From: a virus
IMG/VR virus record: IMGVR_UViG_3300030119_000989
Location: 1-54,711 of that record
Direction: 5' to 3' (one strand)
DNA: 54,711 nt
Each line of letters begins with the position of its first letter. Positions within the stretch are counted from its first letter, which is position 1. The position numbers and the translations under genes were made by a program. Shown in pieces: positions 18,062-50,220 of this stretch. The notes under the pieces were generated by a model. It searched no databases. It saw nothing but the letters and a program-made list of their open reading frames with translations, and was not told the origin of the DNA.

Positions 18062-18372
18062 AACTTCACCTCCCCGTTGTTCGGACTGTCATTCCAGGCA
18101 TAGATCAGCGTGCCAATGATCAGTAGCAGTGATGTCACGAAGACGGCCCCGCGAATACTGCCGGTGATCCAGCAGAGAAATCCAAACACCGCGATAGCCA
18201 TAGCCATGACGCCAAGGGTGATGGAGATCAGCGATCCAGTCACACAATCATTCCCCTCGTACCCTTTGACGAGCGGACACCCCTGCTCATCAGTCTCAGA
18301 CATCATGGCTGCAAACCGTGCGTCGTCGCTGATGTAGACGGTGTCTTTGTTGCTCGACACTGTGCGTTTCAT
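18058..18372 (-). CDS. Small membrane protein
   Basis: A 104-residue protein with two predicted transmembrane helices (SLISITLGVMAMAIAVFGFL and AVFVTSLLLIIGTLIYA) after a 45-residue polar N-terminus. Overlaps both neighbours by ATGA. It could be an exclusion or holin-like protein, but its early-operon position argues against lysis. Unknown. Confidence 0.6.
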   Translation of the reverse strand: MKRTVSSNKDTVYISDDARFAAMMSETDEQGCPLVKGYEGNDCVTGSLISITLGVMAMAIAVFGFLCWITGSIRGAVFVTSLLLIIGTLIYAWNDSPNNGEVKL

Positions 18373-18557
18373 GCTGTACCACCTTCCAGCTTGGGACTCA
18401 CCAACCTTGCGTCTCTGATCTCCGAGCGATCAACTCGAATGTTTTCAGGTGCCTGCACACCAACAAGTGCTTTACCGTCTTTGATTGCGGTGATCCGCAC
18501 GATGATGTCGTCGCCAATGATGATGTCCTGTCCGACTTTTCTGGCTAATACAAGCAT
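18369..18557 (-). CDS. csrA: CsrA/RsmA-family RNA-binding regulator
   Basis: A 62-residue protein, full length for CsrA, which binds GGA motifs in mRNA leaders and blocks or alters translation. The family pattern is complete: MLVLARKVGQDIIIGDDIIV, RITAIKDGKALVGVQAPENI, then the RNA-contact Arg/Glu region VDRSEI. The ATG at 18557 has AAAGGA upstream; the longer open frame is only read-through of the adjacent RNA. The 3' end of the tmRNA-like RNA lies 21 bases before this ATG, so both probably share one transcript. A phage copy could redirect host carbon storage or motility control. Confidence 0.9.
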   Translation of the reverse strand: MLVLARKVGQDIIIGDDIIVRITAIKDGKALVGVQAPENIRVDRSEIRDARLVSPKLEGGTA

Positions 18558-18578: not shown

Positions 18579-18664
18579 TGGAGCCGGTGGGAATCGAACC
18601 CACGTTTCCAACCAGCTACCGCATGCGGTCTTTGCTGGCGGTCGAAACCAACACGTTCGGCCCC
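18579..18664 (-). ncRNA. Minimal tmRNA-like RNA (tRNA-like domain only)
   Basis: An 86-nt sequence folds like the tRNA-like domain of tmRNA. The acceptor stem GGGGCCG/CGGCUCC has 7 bp, with the G-U wobble at the third pair that AlaRS recognises, and discriminator A. The T-arm is GUGGG, UUCGAUU, CCCAC. The 5' part continues GGUUUCGAC, the tmRNA D-region signature. In place of an anticodon arm or a messenger segment there is only a closed helix (CCGCCAGC with GCUGGUUGG, one bulge, capped by ACCGC/GCGGU). No tag reading frame and no anticodon are present, and CCA is not encoded. It lies eight bases after one gene and 21 before csrA. A tmRNA relic is an alternative. Confidence 0.6.
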
Positions 18665-18672
18665 GCGTTCAA

Positions 18673-19272
18673 TCAAATAGCGTTGGCCATCCGTGGCCCT
18701 TGAAGCGTCAATGCCTTACGCCGTTGTGTTTTGTTATGTGCGATTTCTGTGGCAATCTGTACAACCTGGTCAACAGCACCGTTGATCTCGGTTCGCAGTC
18801 GCATGGCTATCGCTTGCTCGCTCGAACTGATTTCACCATCTTCGACCGCATCAACGATGTGACGCACAGTGCGGTTGACTGCATCAAGTAATCGCATGGC
18901 CGCTTCACGCTCGTCTTTGGCGTCAACAATGCCGTTGCCATCCAGATCGGTTTCAATTTTTCGCTTAGGCAATACAGTGACAGCCCAACCATTGAGGAGC
19001 GTCTGAATCACCGGTAACTGCAAATCAGATGGCAGGCGGTCAATGATGTACCAGAGTGTGCTGAACATCTGATCCTCTGGCGTTGGCGTTTCGTCACTGA
19101 GCATCCTGGCCACGGTTGAACGGCTTACGCCCGGCTCGGTGTAAAGCTGCTTTGCAGGCAGGTTGCCAGACTCAACGGCGTCACGGACCTGGGCGTGGAT
19201 CGCTGCCAGAATCCGACTGGCTTTGTCACCGGCGTGATGGTTTGTGTGTCGTGTGTCATTCATGGTCATCAT
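18673..19272 (-). CDS. HTH regulator with an EF-hand/dockerin-like loop
   Basis: A 199-residue protein. Residues 17-60 contain a helix-turn-helix (GNLPAKQLYTEPGVSRSTVA) like phage CII/CP76 regulators. Residues 109-120 read DLDGNGIVDAKD, an exact dockerin/EF-hand calcium-loop pattern, followed by a helix. The C-terminal half is helical (LLDAVNRTVRHIVDAVEDGE). By position it could be a CII-like activator or lysogeny regulator. Several Met codons compete for the start between 19263 and 19272. Calcium binding is suggested by the motif only. Confidence 0.65.
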   Translation of the reverse strand: MMTMNDTRHTNHHAGDKASRILAAIHAQVRDAVESGNLPAKQLYTEPGVSRSTVARMLSDETPTPEDQMFSTLWYIIDRLPSDLQLPVIQTLLNGWAVTVLPKRKIETDLDGNGIVDAKDEREAAMRLLDAVNRTVRHIVDAVEDGEISSSEQAIAMRLRTEINGAVDQVVQIATEIAHNKTQRRKALTLQGPRMANAI

Positions 19273-48907: not shown

Positions 48908-48954
48908 CACGCTTCACACGCGTGAGGTCACAGGTTCGAGCCCTGTATCGCCCA
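48908..48954 (+). other. Attachment core: 3' half of tRNA-Val(CAC)
   Basis: The sequence gives an anticodon arm CACGC-TTCACAC-GCGTG (anticodon CAC), variable loop AGGTC, T-arm ACAGG-TTCGAGC-CCTGT, acceptor strand ATCGCCC and discriminator A. No 5' half (GGGCGAT and D-arm) precedes it, so this is not a whole tRNA but an att site. A terminator hairpin follows at 49003. Integrase 2 ends within it. Confidence 0.85.
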
Positions 48955-50220
48955 TTCCCCGGTAAAGTCTGTATTTGACAGAACTTGCCGACCATGGACA
49001 AACCCCTTGTTTTCAGGGGTTTTTTCATGCGCACCCTTTTTACATGTCATGCCCTGACCATGTCCGTCGGACGGTGACTGCTGCGCTTTTTGCTGCGCCT
49101 GTCCCCTGCCGATTGCTTTTCTAAAATCAGCATCCCTGTCAATGCTCATGGCATAGTGTTTGGCAGCAACGGCAGGTGAATTACCAATCCACTTACAGAC
49201 AGTCGATAAGTCATACTCCCGCATCAATTCAGATTCCCGGCTTGCACGAAGATTTTGCCATAATCGCGGCCAGGGTTCAAAGCCGGCAGATCGGATAATC
49301 CGTATGAATTGGGTTCTGAGATTTTGTGTTGCATCCCGGTAACGTGTAATGACATGGACGGCACCTGGTTCAGCAGCTTCAAAAGCGTCCATCAACAGTG
49401 TCCGTAATTCAGGAAACATCGGGACGGTTCTGACAGCATGACCGTCATGGTGTTCAGTTTTGATCGACCGGACCCGCAATGCCCCAGCCTCCCAATCGAC
49501 ATCAGCCCAAGTCAGTGCCAAATGCTCAGACGGGCAACGCAAGCCACCCCATCGACTCAGGCCAATAAGCAAACGCCATTGCACATCGGAGCAAGCATCA
49601 ATAATCGTTTGGATCGTGTCAGCAGGTACAAAAAACTTTCGGCTTTCGTTTTGCTGTGTGCCAGATCGGATTCCTTCAAATGGGTTGGAACTCGTCAGCT
49701 TCCATCGAATAGCTTTACGCCAAAACGTTCGAGCAGCCACGACACGCCGCGCCACGGTTGGGATAGCTAATCCCTGATTCTCCACCAGCCATGACCGCCA
49801 GGCATCAGCATCCGCCTCTGTGATATCAGCAAGCAAGCGACTTGCATTGAAAAAGTCCAACAGGTTTCTTTTGGTATGCCCGTAGGATTTAAACGTTGCC
49901 GGCTTGCCGTTGATCGTCTTCATATATCGGCCCAGGAAGTCGCCCAGCGTCGTTTGTGTCACGCCTACCCCATCAGCCAGCCCAACGGCTCGAAGCTTTG
50001 AGAGCAACGTTTCATCCAGCGATGCAAGCCACTGTGAGACTTCCGCATCGTGTGGCCGACTTTGCAGCTTGTCAGCAATGATCGTTTCAACCTTCGCCAT
50101 GATGGACCGCGCTGCCTTGGCGTTTGTCCTGCCAAGTCGCACAGATCGCCGTTTACCGTTTGGCGTTAGTGTGAAGTCAATGCGTCGTAGTCCATCGTTA
50201 TAAGTTACAAGTGATGCCAT
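48928..50220 (-). CDS. int: Tyrosine recombinase (integrase 2), planctomycete-type
   Basis: A 430-residue integrase unlike integrase 1. The N-terminal arm-binding part reads SLVTYNDGLRRIDFTLTPNG and RLGRTNAKAARSIMAKVETI. Catalytic residues: Arg in RWGGLRCPSEHLALTWADVD, a second box WQNLRASRESELM, and the Tyr in AVAAKHYAMS. The last 50 residues are low-complexity and end AIQGSNL by reading into the tRNA fragment, a common feature of tRNA-targeting integrases. ATG 50220. It should act on the adjacent core. Confidence 0.92.
   Translation of the reverse strand: MASLVTYNDGLRRIDFTLTPNGKRRSVRLGRTNAKAARSIMAKVETIIADKLQSRPHDAEVSQWLASLDETLLSKLRAVGLADGVGVTQTTLGDFLGRYMKTINGKPATFKSYGHTKRNLLDFFNASRLLADITEADADAWRSWLVENQGLAIPTVARRVVAARTFWRKAIRWKLTSSNPFEGIRSGTQQNESRKFFVPADTIQTIIDACSDVQWRLLIGLSRWGGLRCPSEHLALTWADVDWEAGALRVRSIKTEHHDGHAVRTVPMFPELRTLLMDAFEAAEPGAVHVITRYRDATQNLRTQFIRIIRSAGFEPWPRLWQNLRASRESELMREYDLSTVCKWIGNSPAVAAKHYAMSIDRDADFRKAIGRGQAQQKAQQSPSDGHGQGMTCKKGAHEKTPENKGFVHGRQVLSNTDFTGEWAIQGSNL
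49003..49025 (+). terminator. Terminator behind the tRNA fragment
   Basis: CCCCT-TGTTTTC-AGGGG followed by TTTTTT, plus strand, inside the 3' end of integrase 2. It would end transcripts of a tRNA-Val restored by integration. Confidence 0.65.

Follow-up and report, generated by a model that had tools for sequence, protein, structure and literature searches.

Phages are known to carry genes for full transfer-messenger RNAs (tmRNAs), examples being the Bxz1-like mycobacteriophages and Melnitz. tmRNAs that keep the tRNA-like domain (TLD) and have lost the message are found in organelles, namely the mitochondrial tmRNAs without a coding sequence (CDS) of jakobids (Rfam RF02544) and the approximately 65-bp plastid tmRNAs of Mallomonadaceae. 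Two papers citing Mao et al. 2009 (PMC4131195, PMC11915505) describe a phage-encoded tmRNA from mycobacteriophage DS6A with little beyond the TLD and no tag frame. A 2025 tmRNA database lists 79 tmRNAs from phages; its CDS-less tmRNAs of standard order number nine, whatever their origin (PMC11915505). Here we describe an 86-nt RNA, the mini-tmRNA, encoded by a 54,711-nt stretch of viral DNA (IMG/VR record IMGVR_UViG_3300030119_000989, positions 1 to 54,711; hereafter the window). An earlier note on this DNA knew of no described phage RNA of this form, a statement contradicted by the DS6A RNA as those papers present it.

Structure and genomic setting of the mini-tmRNA

The mini-tmRNA is almost certainly a phage-encoded, TLD-only tmRNA. 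This identification is based on its sequence, its fold, covariation across the family, a near-invariant G3-U70 pair, its location in a phage, and the lack of a tag frame. The minus strand from 18664 (5' end) to 18579 (3' end) contains a complete TLD, the parts of which are as follows.

18579-18664, minus strand: mini-tmRNA (TLD without message part), 86 nt, supported by Rfam RF00023, the R1 model and the fold
18658-18664, minus strand: 5' strand of the acceptor stem, GGGGCCG, pairing 7/7 with 18580-18586, third pair G-U; same as the host ssrA acceptor
18641-18657, minus strand: D-loop region AACGTGTT-GGTTTCGAC, from the sequence; aligned by Rfam as a tmRNA-type motif
18611-18639, minus strand: P2-like helix GCCAGC/GCTGGT with its closing hairpin ACCG-CATG-CGGT (18618-18629), from the fold; family-wide covariation in helices 2 and 3
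18587-18603, minus strand: T-arm GTGGG-TTCGATT-CCCAC, from Rfam, covariation and the fold
18579-18586, minus strand: 3' strand of the acceptor stem, CGGCTCC, and discriminator A, from Rfam, acceptor comparison and the fold

In the RNA, the acceptor stem GGGGCCG/CGGCUCC forms all seven pairs, the third being G3·U70. The D-loop ends in the tmRNA motif GGUUUCGAC and the T-arm (GUGGG-UUCGAUU-CCCAC) is canonical. Where tmRNA has P2, the pseudoknots and the tag, there is a closed 6-bp P2-like helix, GCCAGC/GCUGGU, capped by ACCGCAUGCGGU, a small hairpin ACCG-CAUG-CGGU. CCA is not encoded; the DNA past the 3' end reads TTAACTGAAAGGA, the last part of which is a likely csrA ribosome site.

The Rfam tmRNA model RF00023 matches the RNA end to end with 51.1 bits (gathering score 47, E 2.8e-17) and is the sole Rfam family in the window. 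The alignment spans model positions 1-374, of which 296 in the middle are deleted, the pseudoknots and long P2 of standard tmRNA being absent from the RNA. The R1 model scores it at 59.7 bits. RNAfold recovers the expected helices on the minus strand at -38.1 kcal/mol (z -2.45; 2 of 200 shuffles equally stable), and additionally pairs GGUUU of the D-loop motif with bases in the linker from P2 to the T-arm. Model search and fold, both suggested by the earlier note, thus bear out its proposal of a minimal tmRNA-like RNA without a messenger part, for which it had given no strand.

ARAGORN did not detect the RNA in the window. It finds no cloverleaf there and the fold has neither D-stem nor anticodon, and tRNA-Ala was rejected on these grounds. 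No tag reading frame with a resume codon and a stop codon is present in the 86 nt, the insert being a short hairpin. A hidden tag frame was also rejected: the insert can be read as GCC..TAG, but GCN-to-stop frames occur in 18 of 78 copies against 15.8 in shuffles, and the syntenic copy in prophage L141, described below, has none.

The window contains a prophage, with a divergent S24/HTH repressor, terminase, portal, capsid E, tape measure and two tyrosine integrase genes. The integrase genes lie at either end of the prophage region (1-1182 and 48928-50220, both minus strand), about 30 kb and 17 kb from the mini-tmRNA. The mini-tmRNA belongs to a leftward operon in the order 199-aa open reading frame (ORF), mini-tmRNA, csrA, small genes of unknown function, an ATPase-like gene, YqaJ exonuclease and RecT. 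Given the YqaJ and RecT genes and the divergent orientation relative to the S24/HTH repressor, the earlier description of this as an early operon appears reasonable. Promoter and terminator scans performed no better than chance. The genes that flank the RNA are as follows.

18673-19272, minus strand: 199-aa ORF directly upstream of the mini-tmRNA, no match in Pfam or PHROGs; a 64% identical homologue lies directly upstream of the L141 mini-tmRNA
18369-18557, minus strand: csrA, ATG at 18557 (Pfam CsrA, 2.9e-15); no match in L141

The csrA start is 22 nt downstream of the RNA, which therefore does lie just before csrA, as originally noted. Relative to L141, this csrA (18369-18557) is an extra gene.

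The host has a complete ssrA of its own, located on a different contig (165 bits), as well as an intact smpB. The acceptor of host ssrA is identical to that of all five mini-tmRNAs found in the host family. Such sharing would fit RNAs that have to work with the host's AlaRS, EF-Tu or SmpB, or that derive from its ssrA.

Conservation and breadth of the family

Relatives were sought with a pattern that requires the D-loop motif and the T-arm 20-50 bases apart and leaves the acceptor unspecified. In viral contigs it found at least 119 stretches, nearly all of which have a 7-bp acceptor where one is expected; at least 115 are intact relatives, or at least 67 after dereplication. Applied to bacterial and archaeal genomes totalling 257 billion bases, the same pattern found 41 stretches, 7 of them with a mini-tmRNA acceptor by inspection, and two of these 7 adjoin phage terminase or head-protease genes. 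These counts suggest that the mini-tmRNA is mainly a phage gene. Two variant patterns added 38 viral stretches, of which 32 pass a strict acceptor test.

The G3-U70 pair is the basis of charging by AlaRS. Among the matches listed, taken together with the window copy, 115 of 116 intact copies retain it, whereas many pair types occur at pairs 4-6; its conservation was seen again in the two scans with variant patterns. As the search pattern ignored the acceptor, this near-invariance indicates that alanine charging is likely under selection.

Double changes that maintain pairing occur in all four helices. Double-change cells number 349 in a MAFFT alignment of 61 dereplicated copies (126 in shuffles; score 0.572 versus 0.138) and 521 in a model-based alignment of 85 copies, 84 of them distinct (179 in shuffles; score 0.621 versus 0.137), both controls carrying limits stated by the tool. 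The model-based alignment is fitted to the structure and so leans towards it, whereas the MAFFT alignment is not. Sliding the partners by 1-3 columns in the model-based set lowers the score to about 0.1. The relatives and covariation for which the earlier note had called are thus both present, and its alanine-accepting RNA is strongly supported by the conserved G3-U70 together with covariation in 84 distinct sequences.

A second genome of the same genus (G003) contains the prophage L141, which has homologues of the 199-aa ORF (64%), the ATPase (63%), YqaJ (70%), RecT and several later genes. The 199-aa ORF is followed by a mini-tmRNA, ahead of the next gene, and the P2 and T-stems of this RNA differ from those of the window yet still pair. 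No match to csrA was found in L141. Retention of the RNA with compensated helices where csrA is missing therefore points to selection on the RNA and not on its linkage to csrA. Other copies in the host family lie in differing recombination regions, one with ERF (L140) and one with Sak4, exonuclease VIII and a helicase (L142). A further copy, L139 (G002:C1:230000-249999), accompanies a gene for a Pox_A32-like/terminase-like packaging ATPase, and the element that carries them may be something other than an ordinary tailed phage.

Wider searches gave few strong matches: 3 among 298 genomes of the class and 3 among 392 of the phylum. One phylum match (G661, L235) proved on inspection to be unlike the mini-tmRNA and was dropped. 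R1 matches of about 25-39 bits in relatives were left out of the family; the ones examined resemble the 3' end of host tmRNA, and the remainder are probably tRNAs.

Several isolated phages carry the mini-tmRNA with no RNA annotated at the site. These are the Streptomyces phages LuckySocke, BRock, Shaeky, pSt2308 and Riptide and the Stenotrophomonas virus Jojan60 (records OR725497, KX925554, MT701595, PV588686, PV654398 and ON045087; loci L184, L186, L185, L196, L195 and L192), with model scores of 63-86 bits, and the copies lie within tRNA arrays or next to them. BLAST adds GiJojo and Alone3. Part of the site carries a hypothetical-protein annotation in Jojan60 and, judged by BLAST position, in GiJojo (PP725410). 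A weaker candidate of about 90 nt with a longer hairpin (31-36 bits) occurs in the Microbacterium phages Armstrong, Franklin22 and Quenya (Armstrongvirus/Dismasvirus; L191, L188, L194), adjoining tRNA-Asn or tRNA-Gln. The shortest class, of 62-63 nt (L015, L058, L117, L198), has a single short hairpin as P2 and no apical hairpin.

In metagenomic phages, copies are also found near head, replication or HNH genes, so the location is not fixed. Among the matches listed, tRNAs lie within 1.5 kb at 23 of 115 viral loci, although two of the 23 are ARAGORN tmRNA calls (adjoining L057 and L108). All 20 carrier records searched, several of which are fragments, pass the RF00023 threshold, each through the mini-tmRNA only. 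In these 20 records neither SmpB nor a second, full tmRNA was found, and host SmpB would therefore have to serve.

Possible roles in the infected cell

We propose that the main role of the mini-tmRNA is probably antagonism of host trans-translation by a charged RNA that binds SmpB and EF-Tu. RNase P and 3' nucleases would release the RNA from the operon transcript, the host would add CCA, and its AlaRS would charge the product. In complex with SmpB and EF-Tu of the host, the RNA would then be delivered to stalled ribosomes, or would keep SmpB from host tmRNA. With no resume codon it could not direct tagging, and so would act as a dominant-negative antagonist during infection. Phage proteins and mRNAs may thereby be spared tagging and decay, or a tmRNA-dependent host response may be blocked.

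Published work makes this the most likely role when taken with the missing tag frame. Together with SmpB and EF-Tu, the TLD by itself can enter a stalled ribosome (PMC3968760), and a TLD-only molecule strongly inhibited tmRNA, perhaps through SmpB titration, according to the accounts of Mao et al. 2009 in PMC4131195 and PMC11915505. The decoy suggested in the earlier note would agree with this inhibition, to the extent that those accounts report it.

Several observations weigh against such a role. The published inhibitor, as PMC4131195 reports it, was effective whether chargeable or not, and strict conservation of G3-U70 therefore suggests more than simple SmpB titration. Some host-family copies have a divergent D-loop, and the L142 copy lacks GGUUUCGAC. 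Finally, the copies among ordinary tRNAs could point to a role in supporting translation. The conservation pattern suggests that the charged form matters, either as a competitor that enters the ribosome or as a tagless rescuer, the sequence fitting both alike.

Tagless rescue is rather unlikely. Here the charged mini-tmRNA, with host SmpB, would take the stalled peptide and the complex would be recycled without a degradation tag, the phage keeping rescue and losing tagging. Charging is required for peptide transfer and appears to be selected, given the near-invariant G3-U70, and a CDS-less mitochondrial tmRNA has been suggested to still help with incomplete mRNAs (PMC11915505). However, no stop codon is available for release once the peptide has been transferred, and the TLD-only molecule tested in the work cited above is reported to have inhibited the host system.

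An alanine-acceptor role outside trans-translation is improbable. The RNA could serve as an AlaRS/EF-Tu sink, an alanine donor, or an anticodon-less tRNA lookalike that resists anticodon nucleases, and the copies in tRNA arrays of large phages, with tRNAs near 23 of the 115 loci listed, are consistent with this. Nevertheless, most carriers have no nearby tRNA genes, and the family retains a tmRNA-specific D-loop and P2 that are foreign to tRNAs.

A csrA leader or processing element, as the earlier note had suggested from the neighbouring csrA start, is very improbable and is refuted as a general role: L141 keeps the RNA without csrA, and a motif search recognised no CsrA beside any other family copy examined. 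Least credible of all is a remnant of host ssrA, whether decayed or left at an integration site, which the shared acceptor stem and the frequent use of ssrA as a phage integration site might suggest, since both halves are present and fold, the helices are compensated across relatives, the host ssrA is intact on another contig, the gene order is shared with L141, and both integrase genes are far away; host ssrA decay and an attachment-site remnant were both rejected.

A tentative possibility, on which we place less weight than on antagonism, is that phages possess a large class of RNAs, for the most part unannotated, which go into stalled ribosomes charged and either turn 'rescue and tag' into 'rescue without tag' or block rescue. 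If true, trans-translation would be a common target of phage takeover. With well over 100 copies in viral contigs, some of them in phages of Streptomyces hosts that are handled in the laboratory, it can be put directly to the test whether attack on ribosome rescue, or its bypass, is common among phages. The family also offers natural RNAs of 62-92 nt that resemble the TLD fragments of tmRNA-SmpB structures.

Comparison with known systems

DS6A carries the only phage RNA of this kind named in the literature searched. The kind is therefore known, while its breadth appears to be unrecognised in that literature, which mostly excluded subscription papers, so a report elsewhere is possible. The window RNA fits the DS6A kind in being TLD-only, of standard order and phage-encoded, a likeness drawn from the published description and not from sequence. 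DS6A is one mycobacteriophage, whereas mini-tmRNAs occur in many unrelated phages. The full tmRNAs of Bxz1-like phages and Melnitz differ in encoding the message part. The organellar CDS-less tmRNAs are cellular genes, and the mitochondrial ones are mostly permuted; the phage mini-tmRNA, in contrast, consists of one piece, in a host that also has a full tmRNA. Finally, the mini-tmRNA shares with standard bacterial tmRNA (RF00023) the acceptor with G3-U70, the T-arm, the D-loop and the start of P2, sufficient to pass the gathering score, but where the standard molecule has 230-400 nt it has 86, with no pseudoknots, resume codon, tag or stop.
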